Assembly (NCBI GenBank): GCA_011524395.1
Contig: WTKN01000259.1
Location: forward strand, 1-35,815
DNA length: 35,815 nt
From: Moorena sp. SS36440bin_2
Lineage (GTDB): Bacteria > Cyanobacteriota > Cyanobacteriia > Cyanobacteriales > Coleofasciculaceae
Direction of reading: 5' to 3'
Below are positions 603-27,539 of the stretch, one piece after another. The notes under the pieces are model-generated. The model was not told where the DNA came from and did not search any database. It saw only the letters and a list, made by a program, of their open reading frames with translations. The translations under genes and the position numbers were made by a program. Numbering within the stretch: the stretch's first letter is position 1; the number at the start of each line of letters is the position of its first letter.

Positions 603-1475
603 ATGAGTAGCCATAGGGACGAAGAAACGATCATTGAAAATTTTGACTGGAATCAGCTTTCCCTGGAACAATTAAAGCTCCTTCAGTCTAAAATAAGCCA
701 AGCAATCAATCTTAAGAAACGCAACTTAAAGTTGACCGAATCTACTGCCAATATCACCAAAGTTTATGGGTATAAAGCAACCTTAGCTAAGGTCTCTCCC
801 GCTCACATACGTAGCTCCCTGTCTGAGTATCAAAAGTGTGTTTTTATCATCAGTCTGGGAAGCAAAAACTTCGTTGATAGTAAGCGAATCAAAGCCTCGA
901 TTAAATGGATTAGCGAAAACTTTAAGGCTTGCCTAGTATTAGTTGGCGACAGTGTATATCGACTGACAATCGAGCTTAGACAGAGAGTTAAAGGGGATCA
1001 AGCTTGGCTGGAGGCAATGCGCACTGGAGAGACCTTTATTAATGAAAACCGTTTCTTGTTCCAGCAATACTCTGGAACTTGTCAATTCCAGTTCCAGATG
1101 GCTTCCCAAATAGAGAAGCAATTAGAATTTGAGATCTATTACAAAGACGTTCAGAGTCTTTATCAAAAGGATGAATCTTTTCAAAAGATGGTCAACTCCT
1201 TTGCCCAGACCTATCTTAATCGGGGGGAACAGCCAGAAGAAGAGGAAGTAGAGCAACTTCTCCAAAGGCAAAAGCACCTGGCGATCACCTACCTGCTGGA
1301 AGAGTCAGCTTTGTTTACCTGCCTTGCTAAAGAAGGATGGCTAGTTTTTGTTTATCCTGGGTCAATTAAAACTTTTGAAGAAATTGCGGAAGGGTTACAT
1401 CCAGAGGTTCCTTTACCTCTTCAGCAAATGATCTGGGTCAGCCTACGTCTTAAAAGGAAGGCTACTGCTGGATAA
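603..1475 (+). CDS. tRNA-dependent cyclodipeptide synthase (CDPS), XYP type
   Basis: Predicted to join two aminoacyl groups taken from aminoacyl-tRNAs into a cyclodipeptide (diketopiperazine). The 290-residue product carries the CDPS signature set. FIISLGSKNF (81-90) aligns with the loop holding the catalytic serine, here S84 (AlbC S37). VGDSVYRLTIELRQR follows at 114-128. AITYLLEESALF (227-238) supplies Y230 and E234 (AlbC Y178 and E182). FVYPGS (249-254) supplies Y251-P252. Non-Asn at the AlbC N40 position (S87) with Tyr-Pro marks the XYP subfamily. Residues 1-45 are an extra, probably helical, N-terminus. The ATG at 603 is chosen because upstream in-frame codons, from a TTG at 555, lie in the MITE-like repeat; that TTG has a purine-rich stretch before it and cannot be excluded. 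No tailoring oxidase, P450 or methyltransferase lies next to it. Substrate amino acids cannot be read from the sequence. Confidence 0.85.
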   Translation: MSSHRDEETIIENFDWNQLSLEQLKLLQSKISQAINLKKRNLKLTESTANITKVYGYKATLAKVSPAHIRSSLSEYQKCVFIISLGSKNFVDSKRIKASIKWISENFKACLVLVGDSVYRLTIELRQRVKGDQAWLEAMRTGETFINENRFLFQQYSGTCQFQFQMASQIEKQLEFEIYYKDVQSLYQKDESFQKMVNSFAQTYLNRGEQPEEEEVEQLLQRQKHLAITYLLEESALFTCLAKEGWLVFVYPGSIKTFEEIAEGLHPEVPLPLQQMIWVSLRLKRKATAG

Positions 1476-1788: not shown

Positions 1789-2304
1789 ATGCTGGATTGG
1801 TTAGCAGTTTGGGGAATTTCTAGTGCCGGTGGCTATCTCGTTAAAGAAGTGATCGGTCCCTTGGCAAAAGACGCTCTAGAAGACTACACCAAAGACTTTT
1901 TCAAAGAGTCTATCAAAGAGTATACTGGACTATCTGATCAAACTACCCAGAAAAAACTATTCGGTAAAGCCTTAAAAGAATTTGTAGCCTTAGTTGAAAA
2001 GGAATTGGAAGATGCTGACCTATCCAAGCAAGAATTAAAACAGTATACTAAACCCCTCAAGCAGTATATTAAAAACCAATCCATTAAAGCTATCCTAGGA
2101 AGTGCGTTTAAGTATGGCTGTGAACAAATAGATACTGAGACATTAGCCAAGACTTGGATTGAGCTTAAGTTATTACCATTACCGGAAGAATTTCGTTGGA
2201 AGTATATTGCTAGACAGTATCTCAAGCAAGTACACACTATCATCCGGGAATCCGATCAGTTACGGCCTATCCGAGATTCCCAAACCTTGGATGCGATCGC
2301 GTAG
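1789..2304 (+). CDS. N-terminal part of interrupted NACHT/HEAT STAND protein
   Basis: 171 residues ending DSQTLDAIA and then a stop. It begins MLDWLAVWGISSAGGYLVKE, a hydrophobic and glycine-rich opening, followed by a mainly helical, lysine- and glutamate-rich segment. It has no enzyme motif. It is the amino-terminal part of the NTPase encoded just downstream: deleting 2301-2326 fuses the two frames as ...TLDAIA-KNTNATAGIIPDF... with no other change, giving one protein of about 934 residues. Such N-terminal regions in bacterial NACHT proteins act as effector or recognition domains, but this one is not recognised. As the sequence stands, translation stops inside the inserted repeat, so only a truncated product is expected unless the ribosome shifts frame. 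Confidence 0.7.
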   Translation: MLDWLAVWGISSAGGYLVKEVIGPLAKDALEDYTKDFFKESIKEYTGLSDQTTQKKLFGKALKEFVALVEKELEDADLSKQELKQYTKPLKQYIKNQSIKAILGSAFKYGCEQIDTETLAKTWIELKLLPLPEEFRWKYIARQYLKQVHTIIRESDQLRPIRDSQTLDAIA

Positions 2305-2326
2305 CGTAGCCCTTCGGGCTAATCGC
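2301..2326. repeat. 26-bp palindromic insertion splitting the NACHT gene
   Basis: The insert is 21 bp (2301-2321) plus a second copy of ATCGC (2322-2326); the first ATCGC is at 2296-2300. Its core TAGCCC-TTC-GGGCTA is a perfect 6-bp hairpin. It contains stops in both relevant frames (TAG at 2302 and 2307). The reverse complement starts GCGATTAGCC and ends with ACGCTAC, the same modules as the dispersed repeat at 16950-16969, so it belongs to the GGCCACGCTACGCG repeat group. Its length, 26 bp, is exactly the shift between the two open frames. Confidence 0.8.
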
Positions 2327-2417
2327 AAAAAACACTAACGCTACAGCAGGCATTATCCCAGACTTTGACTTAAGCACCTATCAAGAAGGACTTTTAGAGC
2401 GCTACGGTAATCTCGGC

Positions 2418-4619
2418 TTGGATAGTTTAGATACCAGTGGCTATGCCTATAATGAACTAAAACTCTGGAGGATATTTATCCCCCAAAATGTGCGAGAGGT
2501 TCATGACCTGATGCCGTCAGCTCTTCATGAACTTCCTAAAGATTATTATAAACAACTGGGAGACAGTGATCAACTAGACATAGCAATTGAGCTAGAGGAG
2601 TTGAAGCGAGCTAAAGACGCTTATCATCAACAGCCGGTTAAATCCGTATTGGATGTTATTAATGACTCTCAAAGTTATCCCTATTTGGTGGTTTTAGGAG
2701 ACCCAGGCTCTGGTAAATCTACTTTGCTGCAATATTTAGCATTAAATTGGGCAAGAACAGATCTAACTACTGCCCTTTCTCTACCAATTCCGTTACTGAT
2801 TGAATTACGCACCTATATCCGCAATAGCGATAGTGGACAGTGTAATAACTTCTTGGAATTCTGCCATCAAAGCAGTGGAGCGATATGTCATCTTAATCAA
2901 CATGAACTGCATCACCAGTTAAAGGCTGGTAACGTATTAGTGATGTTGGATGGCTTGGATGAAGTCTTTGAGCCAGGGAAACGAGACGATGTGATTACCG
3001 ATATTCATCGCTTTACCAATACCTATCCTAAGGTACGAGTAATTGTTACATCTCGCGTCATTGGTTATAAACCCCAACGGTTCCGAAATGCTGAATTTCG
3101 TCATGTGATGCTCCAAGACTTGGAGTCAGAACAAATTCAAACCTTTATCGAGCACTGGCACGAGTTAACCTTTACTAATCAAGCCGATAAAGATAGGAAA
3201 CGGGAGCGCTTACAAAAAGCCATTGAGACATCCTCCCCGATTCGACAACTGGCGGTAAATCCCCTACTACTAACCATGATGGCAATCCTGAACCGCAATC
3301 AAGAATTGCCTCGTGACCGTTCTGAACTCTATAACCAAGCGTCTCGGTTACTGCTCCATCAATGGGATGTGGAACGAGCATTACTAGAAGATAATCGTGT
3401 TGATCCCAAGACTATTGATTATAAAGATAAGCAACAGATGCTCGGTAAAGTGGCATATTTCATGCAGGGAAATCAAGCAGGGTTAGCGGGAAATATGATT
3501 AGTGGAGAGGATTTAGAAACGATTATCAAAGAGGAGCTGAAATTACGAGACGTTACTAATCCCAGAGCCGTTGCTAAGGTAATGATTAATCAGTTGCGCA
3601 CCCGCAATTTTATATTGTGTTTCATGGGAGCCGATTACTACGCTTTTGTGCATCGGACATTTTTGGAATATTTCTGTGCTTGGGAATTTGTCAGGAAATT
3701 TGAGAAAAAACAGGAGATTTCCCTAGAACAGTTAAAAACTGAAGTCTTTGGTCAGCACTGGCGAGATGAATCTTGGCATGAAGTGCTCAGGTTGATTGTG
3801 GGTATGATTGATTCCAACAAAGCTGGAGAGATTATTGAGTATTTGATGGCACAAGATGGAGAAGAGGATAGGTTTTGGAATTTATTTCTGGCAGGGGATT
3901 GTTTGTCTGAGGTTAGGAATCGGTATGAGATTAAATCAACGGATTATCAATTACTGAATCGCTTCAAAGACTTAATTCATTATGATCTAAATTATGATTA
4001 TGACCCATATGGATATCAGGCCAATTTAGTCCGTGATCTTCATACTCAAGCTGTTGTAGCAGTAGCCACCCATTGGCAAGACCATCCAGATACCTTACCC
4101 CTACTTCAAAAATGGGCTCGCTCTGATACTGATTTGTTCGTGCGAGGTACAGCAATTGAACAGTTAGCTCAAGTTTACAAAGACTACCCAGATACCTTAG
4201 CCATACTTCAACAATCGGCTCGCTCTGATACTGATTGGGAGGTGCGAATTACAGCAATTCAACAGTTAGCTCAAGGTTACAAAGACCACCCAGATACTTT
4301 ACCTCTACTTCAACAATCCGCTCGCTCTGATACTGATTGGGAGGTGCGAGCTACAGCAATTCAACAGTTAGCTCAAGGTTGGCAAGGTCAGCCTTGGTTG
4401 TTTGAATTTTTATGGGATTGCACTCTCCATGACCCCTTTGAGCGTGATCAAGACGAGGATTACGACAATGTCAATCCTCGACAAGTAGCCCTTCAGGCCA
4501 TCCTGAAATATTATCCTAACCATTCCCAAACCCGATCCTTATTGCAGGATAGAGCAGAGCATGACCCCGAGCCTAAACTGCGGGTGTTTGCTCAGACGCA
4601 ATTATTCAAATTACCGTAG
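2418..4619 (+). CDS. NACHT-domain NTPase with C-terminal HEAT-like repeats (interrupted gene)
   Basis: STAND-class (NLR-like) ATPase. The Walker A motif is GDPGSGKST (about residues 95-103) and the Walker B motif LDGLDEV (about 177-183), followed by a sensor strand VRVIVTSR and a winged-helix/arm region (SPIRQLAVNPLLLTMMAIL). The last 190 residues hold at least three 34-residue HEAT-like repeats (consensus DHPDTLPLLQQSARSDTD then WEVRATAIQQLAQGYK). In bacteria such NACHT proteins are often antiphage sensors, and C-terminal repeats usually recognise the trigger; that role is inferred. The coding frame is really open from about 2310 and continues the 1789-2304 gene; the listed start is an internal TTG with no clear ribosome-binding site, so this half may not be made independently. 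The gene is best regarded as split or a recent pseudogene. Confidence 0.8.
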   Translation: MDSLDTSGYAYNELKLWRIFIPQNVREVHDLMPSALHELPKDYYKQLGDSDQLDIAIELEELKRAKDAYHQQPVKSVLDVINDSQSYPYLVVLGDPGSGKSTLLQYLALNWARTDLTTALSLPIPLLIELRTYIRNSDSGQCNNFLEFCHQSSGAICHLNQHELHHQLKAGNVLVMLDGLDEVFEPGKRDDVITDIHRFTNTYPKVRVIVTSRVIGYKPQRFRNAEFRHVMLQDLESEQIQTFIEHWHELTFTNQADKDRKRERLQKAIETSSPIRQLAVNPLLLTMMAILNRNQELPRDRSELYNQASRLLLHQWDVERALLEDNRVDPKTIDYKDKQQMLGKVAYFMQGNQAGLAGNMISGEDLETIIKEELKLRDVTNPRAVAKVMINQLRTRNFILCFMGADYYAFVHRTFLEYFCAWEFVRKFEKKQEISLEQLKTEVFGQHWRDESWHEVLRLIVGMIDSNKAGEIIEYLMAQDGEEDRFWNLFLAGDCLSEVRNRYEIKSTDYQLLNRFKDLIHYDLNYDYDPYGYQANLVRDLHTQAVVAVATHWQDHPDTLPLLQKWARSDTDLFVRGTAIEQLAQVYKDYPDTLAILQQSARSDTDWEVRITAIQQLAQGYKDHPDTLPLLQQSARSDTDWEVRATAIQQLAQGWQGQPWLFEFLWDCTLHDPFERDQDEDYDNVNPRQVALQAILKYYPNHSQTRSLLQDRAEHDPEPKLRVFAQTQLFKLP
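4080..4385 (+). repeat. three 102-bp tandem units encoding HEAT-like repeats
   Basis: Units begin at 4080, 4182 and 4284, each starting GACYAYCCAGATAC, with exactly 102 bp spacing (34 codons). The second and third units are nearly identical at the DNA level (for example CGCTCTGATACTGATTGGGA in both), which implies recent duplication or gene conversion in the repeat array of the NACHT protein. The first unit is more diverged (TTGTTCGTGCGAGG in place of TGGGAGGTGCGA). Confidence 0.85.
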
Positions 4620-4901: not shown

Positions 4902-5070
4902 TAGAATTTAAAATGAAGAATGAAGAATGTAGAATTCTGCATTCTTCACTCTTACAGAAAACCTTGGCCAAAGGCCACGCTACGCGAACGGCCACGCTAC
5001 GCGTTCAACCTTTTTTAATTAAGAATGTATAATCGGGAATTCTTTATTCTTCATTCTAAATTCTAAATTC
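4902..5070. repeat. imperfect inverted repeat with GGCCACGCTACGCG core
   Basis: The left arm (TAGAATTTAAAATGAAGAAT from 4902) is roughly complementary to the right arm (ATTCTTTATTCTTCATTC from 5039). Between them lie two direct copies of GGCCACGCTACGCG (about 4974-5003) preceded by CCTTGGCCAAAGGCC. It looks like a nested dispersed repeat and is not coding. Confidence 0.6.
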
Positions 5071-5362
5071 CCAATTCTCCCTTCGATAACAATCGCTGCC
5101 TCCCCAAGACCGCGCTACCTCGCTGCATCGCTTTTTTTGCATGATAGAGTTACCTCCATTTAACTTGGGGGAAAAGCCGCCCTTGCAGGTTTGTGGCCGG
5201 AAATCGCGGTTTTCTTCAATTATTATAATATAACGATTGACTATTATTATTGTCAACAATAAAACAAAAAAAAATTAAAAAAATAATGTAATAAATAGTT
5301 ACATTTTAAGGATTACAATGGTAATTTGTTTAGCTAATAACTTAAATTTATATATAAAAGGA

Positions 5363-5540
5363 AACAGGGAACAGCGGATCTGGGAATAGGGAACAGGGAA
5401 TAGGGAATAGGGAATAGGGAGTAGGGAGTAGCGATGCAGCGCGGTCTTGGGAAGGCAGCGCGGTCTTGGGGGTCTCCCCCATGAGCGACTGCCGTGGTTT
5501 CCCCCATGAGCGACTGCATCAAGACGGGAGTAGGGAGTAG
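5363..5540. repeat. GGGAATA heptamers plus GCGGTCTTGGG / ATGAGCGACTGC modules
   Basis: GGGAATA, GGGAACA and GGGAGTA heptamers run to about 5430. Two copies of GCAGCGCGGTCTTGGG and two copies of CCCCCATGAGCGACTGC follow, then more GGGAGTA units. The modules recur elsewhere: CCCCAAGACCGC near 5102 and 20129, and ATGAGCGACTGCAT at 19477. Confidence 0.75.
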
Positions 5541-5750
5541 AGAAAAAAATTATCACAATTCATTGATGATTGCTGTATTAACTGTGTATCAGTTTATCAA
5601 CTTATCTCATCTTAGGATAATTGTAAGCAGTTAGCTGACAGCTTAAAATAAACTTCTTTGGCCTATGGCCACGCTACGGGAACAGGAGAATTTAATATTG
5701 ATAGAGAAGCATGAGAATTGAAAGTCTGAGTAAAAGCCCATTGCGCATAA

Positions 5751-5794
5751 GCTGAATGCTGAATGCTGAATGCTGAATGCTGAATGCTGAATGC
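5751..5794. repeat. GCTGAAT heptamer array
   Basis: Six consecutive GCTGAAT units lie about 130 bp past the 3' end of the reverse-strand thermonuclease gene. An octamer array of CTCCCCAT/CTCCCTAT, seven units, follows at about 5822-5877. Confidence 0.8.
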
Positions 5795-5923
5795 TTACGG
5801 ATAATTACCCATAATAAAAATCTCCCTATCTCCCCATCTCCCCATCTCCCCATCTCCCTATCTCCCCATCTCCCCAAACTTCCCTTATTTTTTACAACTA
5901 TGAGATGCACCCAATTGATAGTA

Positions 5924-6640
5924 TTACTTGAGGGTCTCCTTAAAGGTATCCTCAAACTGATCGTTAGTCATTTTGCCAGCTTCTAGGTCTTCACAGAGGG
6001 TTTGAATTTTTTCTGTAAGCTGCTGATATGCATCTGGGTCTCCAAGCAAGGCTTTTTGCTTTTTCTTAAGGGGACGAAACAGCCAAGGCTGGATAAAACC
6101 TGACTTCGGTTCTTGCCATAACCCTTTGCCTTGGCGTTCCGCATCTGCCTCTGCCAACAGAAGAGAGATAGCCATCTCGCGAGGGCACTTACTAAAATAA
6201 TCGTAATAAATCAGTGATAATCCTTCTTTTACTAAACTATGCTGAAGAAAGGTGCCATCCAATAAGTAAACTTCGCCAATTCTACGATTGTAGCGAGTGT
6301 CGATGTCAGTAATTCTCAATTTAACTTTATCACCGTTTTCTTCTACCAAATTTTTGACCCACTCTTTCCCTTCATTGCCCCACTTAAATTGACTTTGATA
6401 GAGGGCATTGTCCTGATTTTTATCCTCAAGTTTTTTGTAACCCCACCCCTTAGGCGTTTCTGGTGCATCAATGTAAACGAAGCGCACTGTAATCTCTTCT
6501 CCGGAGCCATCAATCACATCAATGGTGTCAGCATCGGAAACTTTCTTAACAGCGTAGGTTTCTAAGGACTCAAAGTATGGCGGTACTTGAGGAGCAACTG
6601 ACCCTACTTTACTTAAAATTTCAGTAATCAAGTCTGTCAT
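5924..6640 (-). CDS. thermonuclease (staphylococcal nuclease-like)
   Basis: SNase-like nuclease of 238 residues, expected to hydrolyse DNA and RNA phosphodiester bonds in a calcium-dependent way. The staphylococcal catalytic set is present: D38 in VSDADTIDV (D21), R53 and D58-x-x-E61 in VRFVYIDAPETPK (R35, D40, E43) and R119 in YNRRIGEVYL (R87). There is no signal peptide; the N-terminus (MTDLITEILSKVGSVAPQVP) is soluble, so a cytoplasmic location is likelier than secretion. The C-terminus (LTEKIQTLCEDLEAG through the end) resembles a short helical SHOCT-like tail, which is a guess. TAGGA eight bases before the ATG supports the start. It is monocistronic, and its stop lies beside repeat DNA (TGAGATGCACCC at 5902-5913). 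Confidence 0.88.
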   Translation of the reverse strand: MTDLITEILSKVGSVAPQVPPYFESLETYAVKKVSDADTIDVIDGSGEEITVRFVYIDAPETPKGWGYKKLEDKNQDNALYQSQFKWGNEGKEWVKNLVEENGDKVKLRITDIDTRYNRRIGEVYLLDGTFLQHSLVKEGLSLIYYDYFSKCPREMAISLLLAEADAERQGKGLWQEPKSGFIQPWLFRPLKKKQKALLGDPDAYQQLTEKIQTLCEDLEAGKMTNDQFEDTFKETLK

Positions 6641-7419
6641 GGCCTAAATCCTATCAGAACTCAGATAAAAGTAATCGATGAACAGGCAATCAGTGTCTCA
6701 AATCAACAGTTGATGCTATTCTAGATTTAAAACTAACCATAGCAAAACACTTACTAGCTGTCCATTCGCTTCAATCATCCCACAACAGAAGCAATGCCAG
6801 GGAAGTCACTTATTTCCGTCTCCGCTCCACCAGTAACCTTCAAGACAGGTGTTACCAGATTGATCTATAATCATAGATCGTGACAATTGTTGTTAAAAAC
6901 AAGACCAAATCGAGAAGCGTTGGTGGTGATCAGGTATTTCTTGATCTCAAAGGCAGTTGAAACCCCTTGTGTACAAGCGCGGGGTATAAAAACAAGTTAG
7001 GGGCGTGATTCCCCTTGTCTACTAAATTTGTGATGAGGAATCATAAACGTCAAAAGCTAGTTAACTAGATCAGGATTTTCTAGCAGTGTTTGGTGGTTAA
7101 AAAAACCCTAGCTGCTTCCCCCTGAGAGACTGCATCAAGGCTTAAGTATAGTCAAAGTCAGCCCTGGGAGTTTTGCTCCGGAGCCAACGGTACTATGTTT
7201 TAAATTATATGAATACTTGATATCGTAGCTTGTTTTCTTAGTGCTTTAGCCCAGGGAGAGTTCAAGTTGGCACTAGCAAGTTTTTCATCAAGGCTGTTAA
7301 CTAATTGGTGCTTCCGTTTTTTTACCATTTTATCAATGGGTGATTCTGCTGTTTATAAAACGTTTATCTATAGTTCTGTAAAGTACTCAACTGTAAGACC
7401 CACTATTCGAGGAAAAACG
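6641..7419. other. gene-free divergent spacer
   Basis: Lies between the divergent thermonuclease and deoxyhypusine-synthase-like genes, and must carry both promoters, though no convincing -35/-10 pair is evident. It contains a perfect short palindrome (6862-6879) and a degenerate copy of the CGACTGCATCAAG module (about 7117-7140, CCCCCTGAGAGACTGCATCAAG in two parts). An open frame from 7267 runs into the downstream gene but reads unlike protein before 7420. Confidence 0.5.
6862..6879. promoter_or_regulatory. perfect 7-bp palindrome, possible operator
   Basis: GATCTAT-AATC-ATAGATC is a perfect inverted repeat with a 4-bp spacer, 222 bp upstream of the thermonuclease start. Its symmetry fits a dimeric regulator site or a small hairpin. 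No regulator is encoded nearby, so the role is open. Confidence 0.25.
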
Positions 7420-8382
7420 ATGATTCGAGAGTTCATGAAGAGAAATTTTCGACACTTTAATGCAGCCGTGTGTGTTGAGGTGGCTGAAGGATGGGTGAAA
7501 CACCTGGAATCTGGTAATAAAATGTTTCTGACTATGGCTGGTGCCATGAGTACAGGAGAGTTGGGTATTTCTCTGGCTGAAATGATTCGCCAAGACAAGG
7601 TACATGCAATTTGCTGTACTGGAGCGAATCTTGAAGAGGATATCTTCAATCTGGTTGCCCACTCTAAATATAAGAGATTACCGGATTATCGTTCACTGAA
7701 ACCAGAAGAGGAAAAGGCTCTTTTTGAGTCCGGTATGAATCGAGTTACTGATACATGTATCCCTGAAGAAGAAGCGATGCTCAAAATTGATCGGCATATG
7801 CTGAAACTGTGGCAAGCAGCTGATCAATCTGGCCAAAGCTTTTTCCCATACGAGTTCATTTATCAACTTATTGAAAGTCAAGAGCTTAAAGACTCTTATG
7901 AAATTGATACTCGTGAATCATGGGTAATCGCAGCATGGCAGAAACAAATTCCTATTTTTGTTCCTGGATGGGAGGATTCAACTCTGGGAAATTCCTTTGT
8001 TTCTGAATTTATTAAAGGCAATATCAGTCGCTTAAATGTTGTGCGTAGCGGTCTTGAGCTGATGGTATTTCTTGTTAATTGGTATAAAGAAAATACTAGA
8101 TATTTTTCCATGGGATTCTTTCAAATTGGGGGTGGAATTGCTGGAGATTTTCCCATCTGCGTTGTGCCACTGATCCACCAGGATATCAAGGAAGACTGTA
8201 AGTTGTGGAGTTACTTCGCCCAAATTAGCGATTGTACCACCTCATACGGTTCCTACAGTGGCGCACTACCTAGTGAAAAGATTAGTTGGGGCAAACTTGA
8301 TACGGACACCCCTAGTTACGTGATTGAATCGGACGCATCAATTGTAGCTCCGCTGATTTTTAATTACGTCCTAGGTCACTAA
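7420..8382 (+). CDS. deoxyhypusine synthase family protein (possibly homospermidine synthase)
   Basis: 320 residues matching the deoxyhypusine synthase family: MFLTMAGAMSTGELGISLAE (35-54), CCTGANLEEDIFNLVAH (65-81), NRVTDTCIPEEEA (107-119) and the active-site segment SWGKLDTDTP (289-298), where K292 corresponds to the lysine that carries the aminobutyl intermediate. Eukaryal enzymes transfer the aminobutyl group of spermidine to eIF5A with NAD. Bacteria lack eIF5A, and bacterial relatives can transfer it to putrescine to make homospermidine, so a polyamine role is inferred. GAGG (7409-7412) lies seven bases before the ATG at 7420, and family proteins start near this MIREFMKRNF; the longer frame from 7267 is rejected. 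The TAA stop overlaps the first bases of the repeat at 8382. Confidence 0.85.
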   Translation: MIREFMKRNFRHFNAAVCVEVAEGWVKHLESGNKMFLTMAGAMSTGELGISLAEMIRQDKVHAICCTGANLEEDIFNLVAHSKYKRLPDYRSLKPEEEKALFESGMNRVTDTCIPEEEAMLKIDRHMLKLWQAADQSGQSFFPYEFIYQLIESQELKDSYEIDTRESWVIAAWQKQIPIFVPGWEDSTLGNSFVSEFIKGNISRLNVVRSGLELMVFLVNWYKENTRYFSMGFFQIGGGIAGDFPICVVPLIHQDIKEDCKLWSYFAQISDCTTSYGSYSGALPSEKISWGKLDTDTPSYVIESDASIVAPLIFNYVLGH

Positions 8383-26196: not shown

Positions 26197-26709
26197 CTAA
26201 AGACGCGGGGATTCTTTGTTCGCAGACTCGACTTGCTTAACCAGGTCGGAACCAGGAAAAGTAGAGGCCAAATCTCCCAAAACGTTCGGATCTAGGATCC
26301 AGGTTCCGGTGTGCCCCACCGTACCCAAGGCTCTCTTGAGGATATTGATGGCAGCGTTGTGGTCGCGGTCTAATTGACAACCGCATTTGCAGGTGTGAGT
26401 CCTAGTTGATAGAGACTTTTTTACAACCTCACCACACTCAGAGCAGTTCTGGCTAGTGTAGGCCGGGTTGACTGCAACAGTGACCCTGCCAAACTTAGTT
26501 CCAAAATGCTCCAACCATTTCCTAAACTGATACCAACCCGCATCATTAATAGACTTGGCCAGACAATGATTTTTCACCAAATTCCTAACCCTTAGATCTT
26601 CGTAGGCAACCAAATCGTTAGATTGGATTACGCAACGTGCCGGAGATGAAACCTTAGAAGAGTGCAGCCTTACAACAAAATCTGTCACCTTTGATGCATA
26701 ACCTACCAA
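26197..26709 (-). pseudogene. tnpB: TnpB, C-terminal part (frame-broken)
   Basis: 170 codons. After about 24 codons of inserted sequence it reads ARCVIQSNDLVAYEDLRVRN, containing the second RuvC acidic residue (E38 of this frame). The zinc-finger half-sites CSEC (89-92) and CKCG (107-110) follow, then the third RuvC residue in LDRDHNAAINIL (D116). The listed start is an arbitrary TTG. All RuvC and zinc-binding residues of the original TnpB nuclease survive across the two pieces, so the inactivation looks recent. The stop lies inside the right-end hairpin, as is usual for this family. Confidence 0.85.
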
Positions 26710-26746
26710 CTATAAAGGCTGCACTCTTCTTGCGGTAACTTCGTTC
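26640..26746. repeat. 107-bp insertion with 16-bp inverted repeat in tnpB
   Basis: AGAAGAGTGCAGCCTT (26656-26671) and AAGGCTGCACTCTTCT (26715-26730) are perfect complements around 43 bp. Removing 26640-26746 rejoins the tnpB frames as ...HAKRL-ARCVIQSNDLVAYEDL..., the expected family text. The length of 107 bp (2 modulo 3) is exactly the observed frame shift. Edges are assigned from the protein family and may be off by a base or two. Confidence 0.65.
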
Positions 26747-27539
26747 CCAGTCTCTTGGCGTGTTCTTCACGTTGCCGACTTATTCTAAGGTGTGTCCTAC
26801 CTAGTTTATTAACAGCTTTCTTGCGGTTGGATGTTCGCGAAGCGTGGCCTACGGCCTTGCCTTTCTTTTTTCGAGATACCCGACGCTGATAAAACTTTAA
26901 GCGCTTTTCACCAATCCGATAAAACCGGGGGTTAGGTTCAGTTTTTCCAACGGAATCCGTGTAGAAATCCTTCAGCCCGACATCTAACCCGATGGCTGTT
27001 CCAGTTGGCTCCAGTGCTTCCGTTATGTCAACTGAAACACAGAACTGGACATAGTAGCCATCAGCTCGTCGAACTATCCGAACCCGCTTAATTTGCTTCT
27101 TGTCAAAGCACCACAAGTCCCAATTCCCCTTGAGTTTGAGCTTCCCAATTCCCTTCTTGTCCCTGAACACGATCGACTTTTTATCTGGGGACAATTTCCA
27201 GCCAGACTGTTTGTATTCAACCGATCTGCCACGCTTTTGGAACTTTGGGAAACCTTTTTTTTCAGGTACCTTTTTTTTGCAATTGTCAAAGAATCGAGAA
27301 ATTGATGACCATGCCCGTTCAGAACTGGCCTGACGAGCGGTAGAGTTCAATTCATTAGCAAACGGGAACTGATGGGCTAAAACTTTGCTGTATTTCGACA
27401 GATCGTATTTATTGACGCCCTTGTTGTCCATCCAATATCTGAGACAACTGTTTCGGATAAAACGGGCTGTCCTAATAGCCTCATCAATAGCAAAATATTG
27501 AGGTTTTTTGCCGTATGCCTTGAACTCCAGAATGATCAT
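26703..27539 (-). pseudogene. tnpB: TnpB, N-terminal part (frame-broken)
   Basis: 278 codons starting MIILEFKAYGKKPQYFAIDE. The N-terminal helical region includes RNSCLRYWMDN, the RNA-binding beta part includes KGFPKFQKRGRSVEYKQSGW, and the first RuvC strand is AIGLDVGLKDF with catalytic D186. From about residue 265 (GTKLPQEECSLYSW) it runs into inserted DNA and stops. Residues about 229-236 (AVGHASRT) are encoded by a dispersed GTTCGCGAAGCGTGGCCTAC-type repeat inserted in frame. TnpB is an RNA-guided nuclease related to Cas12; this copy cannot make a full product. Confidence 0.85.
26832..26861. repeat. dispersed repeat inserted in frame within tnpB
   Basis: The segment GTTCGCGAAGCGTGGCCTAC followed by GGCC is nearly identical to 34362-34385 downstream of uppS (GTTCGCGCAGCGTGGCCTAC then GGCC). 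In tnpB it adds about eight codons without breaking the frame. Confidence 0.7.

Follow-up and report, generated by a model that had tools for sequence, protein, structure and literature searches.

An intact cyclodipeptide synthase gene of the XYP type beside a truncated TerB-domain gene in a Moorena genome

Cyclodipeptide synthases (CDPSs) are known as enzymes that work alone, and tailoring enzymes act afterwards. In AlbC numbering, XYP enzymes show Tyr202-Pro203 with any residue at position 40, while NYH enzymes show Asn40, Tyr202 and His203. Among the solved structures, the CDPSs of Fluoribacter dumoffii (PDB: 5ocd), Rickettsiella grylli (5mlp) and Nocardia brasiliensis (5mlq) are presumably of the XYP type. 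The XYP residue trio is mentioned in the portion of PMC5816076 consulted, and Table 1 of that paper lists the Parcubacteria CDPS 90 (7qat and others) as XYP. The same portion reports that 32 of 42 CDPSs were active when expressed in E. coli and that many of the inactive XYP enzymes came from fungi, cyanobacteria or metagenomes, and it suggests, as possible causes, tRNAs of E. coli that do not suit these enzymes or a wrongly chosen start codon. The sole cyanobacterial enzyme in its Table 1, the XYP-type CDPS 99 of Lyngbya confervoides, showed no activity when expressed in E. coli; it may or may not share the clade of the CDPS described below.

The window analyzed here is an entire contig (35,815 bases) of Moorena sp. 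SS36440bin_2. Its first 5 kb contain the following features, for which the AlbC residue numbers S37, Y178 and E182 are those that we take to denote the catalytic Ser and the Tyr/Glu pair:

1-53, no strand: contig end, where the terminal part of a multicopy repeat, probably a mobile element, abuts terB; also at an end of six other contigs
54-424, forward: 5'-truncated TerB-domain gene (PF05099; 71-75% amino acid identity to four TerBs over 119 codons)
490-598, no strand: MITE insertion, with terminal repeats at 493-501 and 587-595 and TAA at 490-492 and 596-598 (genome copies)
603-1475, forward: CDPS of the XYP type, 290 residues (TIGR04539, PDB alignment, predicted fold and conserved residues)
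852-863, forward: codons of S84 (AlbC S37) to S87 (AlbC position 40), from the alignment to 9j61 and 7qat
1290-1304, forward: codons of Y230-E234 (AlbC Y178/E182), from the alignment to 9j61
1353-1358, forward: codons of Y251-P252 (AlbC positions 202-203), from the alignment to 9j61
1789-4619, forward: NNH2-NACHT-HEAT protein in two ORFs, 1789-2304 and 2418-4619 (Pfam NNH2 and NACHT); neighbour of the CDPS gene

The CDPS gene is a single open frame with an ATG start, and starting from a TTG at 555 instead would lengthen it by 16 codons, mostly within the MITE-like repeat. The first-pass annotation, made from the sequence alone, had read this frame as a CDPS and proposed a profile search. NCBIfam TIGR04539 (tRNA-dependent cyclodipeptide synthase) matches residues 68-279 with 65.7 bits (cut-off 45, E 4.2e-18) and the best PDB sequence match is 9j61 (E 2.2e-38), which upholds that reading, though the Pfam CDPS family PF16715 scores 21.7 bits, under its cut-off of 27, so annotation by the Pfam cut-off alone would overlook this gene. 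A profile built from 19 proteins retrieved 15 distinct PDB sequences (E up to 10), 14 of them named CDPS and the other, 5mlp, titled as a CDPS from Rickettsiella grylli. The top matches were 9j61 (E 3.7e-54) and then 5ocd (E 1.1e-21); AlbC, Rv2275 and YvmC were absent from the matches of this profile at E up to 10. The dN/dS of the gene against six relatives was 0.15-0.20, an average over the whole divergence that reports long past constraint and is blind to recent loss or present function.

The motifs ISLGSK (S84), YLLEE (Y230 and E234) and VYPGS (Y251-P252) had been picked out beforehand, together with a residue other than Asn at position 40, and the alignments bear out all of them. In the alignment to 9j61, S84 corresponds to the catalytic Ser, Y230/E234 to the Tyr/Glu pair and Y251-P252 to the XYP Tyr-Pro, while S84-L85-G86-S87 aligns with S-L-G-N of the Parcubacteria enzyme 7qat, which places a Ser at position 40. 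Residues S84, S87, Y230, E233, E234, Y251 and P252 are identical in all 17 proteins aligned, that of the window included (L096, which has a stop codon, the broken L100, L104 and L106, and the fragment L108 were omitted), and likewise in a second set of 19. By its residues, S87 at position 40 and Y251-P252, the protein fits the XYP definition, as the first-pass annotation had proposed; the 41-protein tree described below was built with no NYH reference. Using the pocket positions given for CDPSs in the consulted portion of PMC5816076, eight of 15 were mapped: positions 33, 35, 185, 186 and 200 are V80, I82, L237, F238 and F249, and positions 204, 206 and 207 are G253, I255 and K256. Because the other seven are unmapped, no product is named for this enzyme.

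The AlphaFold2 model, computed from 17 sequences, shows a mean pLDDT of 76.3 and a pTM of 0.71, and its first 50 residues, of low to middling confidence, are mostly one predicted helix at 21-41. In a fold search the model matched 9j61 best (Z 25.4, rmsd 2.2 Å, 219 residues aligned), followed by 5ocd (21.6), the Nocardia brasiliensis CDPS (Nbra-CDPS, 21.1), YvmC (18.8), Rv2275 (17.7) and AlbC (15.3). CDPSs thus occupied the range Z 15-25, and the next matches were tyrosyl-tRNA-synthetase variants at Z of about 14. The predicted fold is the class-I aminoacyl-tRNA-synthetase-like Rossmann fold and it agrees with those of the characterised CDPSs, the comparison that had been suggested for this protein. 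The first-pass annotation named a model in which S84, Y230, E234 and Y251 lie apart as grounds for refutation; the alignment to solved CDPSs indicates, indirectly, that the four would share a pocket.

Three of four genomes of the genus gave CDPS matches: the intact gene in the own genome, fragments plus a CDPS of another type in a second, and a single fragment in a third; M. bouillonii has only a fragment. A profile search detected CDPSs of any type in six of 20 genomes for the family and in 26 of 388 for the order, while a protein search of the phylum, which is less sensitive, matched two of 386 genomes, the own and one other. Scanning named genomes yielded 21 loci related to the CDPS of the window, all cyanobacterial, in agreement with the cyanobacterial origin assigned earlier. 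They belong to Moorena, Okeania, Symploca, Calothrix, Richelia, Hydrocoleum and Oscillatoria, and the remaining ones to Microcoleaceae, Prochloraceae and one unclassified cyanobacterium. The window itself had no match in the plasmid collection or the phage collection. A 41-protein tree places the 22 sequences with SLGS or SLRS, that of the window included, on one side of a branch with support 99/99. The 13 cyanobacterial CDPSs of another type ('SLEN' and variants) cluster with 9j61 (87/84; 98/94 for the grouping of 9j61 with this type); the outgroup branches are long and the deeper forks of this tree are unsure.

Some CDPSs of the other type carry an N-terminal aminoacyl-tRNA editing domain, PF04073 (L040 8789-9949, L041 9206-10381, L042 7044-8084 and L044 3744-4904; over the cut-off in three, below it in L044), so that an editing domain is fused there to an enzyme that should consume aminoacyl-tRNA. 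Large WD40-repeat proteins adjoin two of these genes (L040 5468-8770, 18 bp upstream, and L041 4972-8769), and that of L041 also has a patatin gene beside it. The CDPSs of L032 and L033 show a long N-terminal extension with no Pfam match.

The truncated gene at 54-424 points to a neighbour that recurs across the clade. Of the 21 named related loci, 15 encode a TerB domain on the strand of the CDPS, either fused to it or no more than 450 bp away (L088, L089, L090, L092-L096, L098-L101, L103, L105 and L107, with the TerB of L100 in two frames); L089, from Okeania SIO3I5, has an intact terB in its region 4962-6381. About 0.006 such neighbours would be expected by chance, a rough figure that derives from 98 TerB matches in 20 family genomes and assumes independent loci and a family-wide density. 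A full TerB was not found near the CDPS in the other six: L091 and L097 show an uninterrupted CDPS match, L102 reaches the contig edge 188 bp upstream of its CDPS match, the CDPS is broken in two in L104 and L106 (the latter with a 27-residue TerB piece), and L108 is a 46-residue CDPS fragment. The TerB gene is located upstream, downstream or between two CDPS genes, and these changes of gene order argue against inheritance of a single frozen arrangement. The Prochloraceae locus (L099, 7503-8864) encodes both in a single ORF of 454 residues, a TerB domain (PF05099 33.9 bits, cut-off 24.4) followed by a CDPS that matches TIGR04539; the Pfam CDPS family was not reported for it at E up to 0.01. 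Two further arrangements were seen: L037 (7097-11009) combines three consecutive CDPS genes (two of the window clade, the third of the other type) with a fused TerB domain and a second TerB domain, and L055 (9114-17976) has a TerB, a CDPS and an NRPS-like ORF of 2373 residues (labelled by eye) in a row on one strand.

TerB genes are also found near cyanobacterial CDPSs of the other type, up to about 2.6 kb apart, in L033, L034, L035, L037, L038 and L039, and L034, L035 and L039 have a gene of a cytochrome P450 cluster nearby (Pfam-tested in L035 only). An enolase-superfamily (mandelate racemase/muconate lactonizing) gene is present at 3440-4498 of L035, near its CDPS, P450 and TerB. We also picked 18 TerB relatives (identity roughly 50% or higher) that had no CDPS detected next to them. 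Nine of these 18 places have a biosynthesis-type neighbour: a P450-cluster gene in two (one Pfam-tested), a methyltransferase-like gene in four (three Pfam-tested) and an NRPS-like gene in three (labelled from the BLAST cluster and by reading the sequence), which hints at a wider link of TerB to natural-product loci.

The model of the fusion protein shows a pTM of 0.54, a linker of low pLDDT and no confident arrangement of the two domains, and no interface for TerB docking on the CDPS is claimed. A resemblance between the N-terminal extension of the CDPS and TerB (FDWNQLSLEQL and FDWKNANIEEL) was discarded, as 14 of 1000 shuffles scored as high. The pairing of TerB with a CDPS is apparently unreported: no report was found in the open-licence PMC papers searched, TerB and CDPS do not occur in PMC7159879 (eLife, conflict systems), neither TerB nor YbaK occurs in PMC2922099, and cyanobacteria and TerB do not occur in PMC5930311. 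The portion of PMC10548850 consulted concerns leucyl/phenylalanyl transferases and was set aside.

These neighbourhoods have to be weighed against another explanation, in which the CDPS works alone and needs no partner, and terB is only inherited alongside it, perhaps because it confers stress tolerance or shields the cell from the product. The uninterrupted CDPS matches without a nearby TerB in L091 and L097, the survival of the CDPS frame in the window beyond that of terB, and the proportion of CDPSs active in E. coli in the consulted portion of PMC5816076 are consistent with it. The TerB-CDPS fusion, the persistence of both genes together while their order shifts, and the presence of TerB near the other cyanobacterial type argue against it, and we rate it a serious contender that falls somewhat short of an even chance.

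That terB and CDPS act together is our preferred reading, and the state of the locus bears on whether they still do so in this strain. The terB ORF runs from an ATG at 104, with the frame open backwards into the repeat, and its PF05099 match (31 bits, cut-off 24.4) covers only positions 37-112 of the 118 of the profile; about 40 codons at its start have given way to the terminal part of a multicopy repeat, of which 52-55 bases recur with 98-100% identity at one end of six other contigs of the genome. Its codon pattern resembles that of the CDPS. Inspection of the sequence upstream of base 1 had been advised; that sequence falls outside the contig, whose end here is the multicopy repeat. The lost start of terB was not found in the assembly when the 50 N-terminal residues of a clade TerB served as query, a search that led to three places, one TerB relative and two distant TerBs. 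The relative is split over two contigs, with a frame that continues across their 55-base overlap, and another TerB of the subfamily therefore seems to exist in the genome, away from the CDPS, and might make up for the damaged copy next to it. The first-pass annotation had seen no tailoring enzyme next to the CDPS gene, which is narrowly true, but it had overlooked the terB remnant at 54-424, the conserved neighbour elsewhere.

Between terB and the CDPS lies a MITE (493-595, about 103 bp, with exact 9-bp terminal repeats and too short for a transposase) that ends 7 bp before the start codon. It has five copies in the genome, the four others 77-89% identical, and a 3-bp TNA duplication, TAA in this copy, flanks all five. 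A MITE-like repeat before the start codon had been described correctly, but an insertion describes it better than the proposed replacement of the leader: the gap between terB and the CDPS without the MITE would be about 70 bp, as inferred from the coordinates. Expression of the CDPS may have been altered by these insertions. The same locus of another Moorena genome (G002) is similar to the window from base 54 onward in terB (90.6%), over 596-780 in the CDPS (90.3%) and from 1498 on toward the NACHT gene (88%). In G002 terB is frameshifted, only about 60 codons of the window-type CDPS, from its start, align, and its place is taken by an opposite-strand CDPS of the other type. At the same locus in L032 (9779-12452), from a Moorena other than that of the window, a remnant of the window-type CDPS and an opposite-strand CDPS of the other type lie between terB and a NACHT gene. 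Elsewhere in the window, a TnpB-like transposon ORF split in two is found at 26197-27539 on the reverse strand (labelled by eye), and a deoxyhypusine-synthase-like protein at 7267-8382 (PF01916, 140.8 bits, far under the cut-offs of the matched NCBIfam subfamilies).

Such damage could mean that the CDPS is a relic, whose ORF is intact because the damage is recent and whose expression was lost when repeat and MITE replaced the promoter side. We find this about as credible as a CDPS without a partner, just under evenly balanced, and the two are compatible. The truncated terB, the MITE next to the start, the split NACHT gene, the degraded locus of the other Moorena and the fragment in M. bouillonii all point that way, as do the promoter-like sites at 400-1800, which were not above chance (two found, 2.2 expected). 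Against a relic stand the intact frame and catalytic residues and a dN/dS of about 0.18, which is a long-term average, and the promoter scan covered sigma-70-like sites only. The CDPS gene is in any case an ordinary enzyme gene, intact, within a decaying locus.

A link to the neighbour downstream, with the CDPS as the small-molecule arm of a NACHT/STAND conflict system and its product a signal or toxin tied to the NACHT protein, is very improbable: NNH2-NACHT adjoins the CDPS here and in the corresponding locus of another Moorena, where it is one unbroken ORF of 1033 residues, and also occurs in L049, and the WD40-repeat and patatin genes of L040 and L041 would suit such a system, but scoring 150 of 226 candidates already yielded at least 28 NACHT matches in the own genome, BLAST connects the NACHT ORFs to just three of 36 other neighbourhoods (L032, L049 and L059), the copy in the window is split, and in PADLOC the CDPS matched nothing and the NACHT protein matched weakly. 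NACHT was not taken as the main reading because it is common in the genome and rare beside related CDPSs.

Taken together, we consider it probable that the window encodes an XYP CDPS of a TerB-linked cyanobacterial clade, that TerB acts together with it, and that in this strain, where the CDPS is intact, the start of terB is lost and a MITE precedes the CDPS start, their unit is either in decay or being rewired. Following the established CDPS mechanism, an aminoacyl group from one aminoacyl-tRNA would be loaded on S84, and a second from another aminoacyl-tRNA would be added to it with release of a 2,5-diketopiperazine; TerB would most likely act together with the CDPS or with its product. More specifically, TerB might be a dedicated subunit or activator of this clade, for example presenting the tRNA or holding the CDPS at its site of action, and dependence on it would partly explain why cyanobacterial XYP enzymes were silent alone in E. 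coli. This we offer tentatively and regard as rather unlikely as it stands.

Compared with known systems, the closest is 9j61 of Streptomyces sapporonensis, which shows the same fold over residues 54-285 of the CDPS of the window, 28-33% identity, and aligned Ser, Tyr, Glu and Tyr-Pro residues. At position 40 it has Asn where the window protein has Ser, its matched part is preceded by 22 residues rather than 55, and several alignable pocket positions carry different residues; in the tree it groups with the other cyanobacterial type. Also close are 5ocd, 5mlp, 5mlq and the Parcubacteria CDPS 90 (7qat and others), which match in fold and profile with 14-24% identity in the fold search, and for which we know of no TerB partner. 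The TerB side resembles the TerB-like protein 2ou3 of Nostoc punctiforme (COG3793; E 3.2e-9 for a clade TerB sequence), which superimposes on residues 1-160 of the fusion model (Z 17.1, rmsd 3.2, 152 aligned); we know of no link of 2ou3 to a CDPS, and to our knowledge the function of the TerB domain is poorly understood. Genome surveys (PMC7825088 and PMC9967302) report CDPS genes in marine filamentous cyanobacteria, as here, whereas the sections of them consulted describe no partner gene in the CDPS clusters, in contrast to terB in this locus, and the main text of PMC9967302 does not mention 'TerB'. The CDPS is therefore a known kind of enzyme with an overlooked partner gene. If the partnership is real, a conserved and once-fused TerB would be a new kind of component for CDPSs, it would give the TerB domain a molecular role, and its absence would be a further putative cause of the inactivity of cyanobacterial XYP enzymes in E. 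coli.
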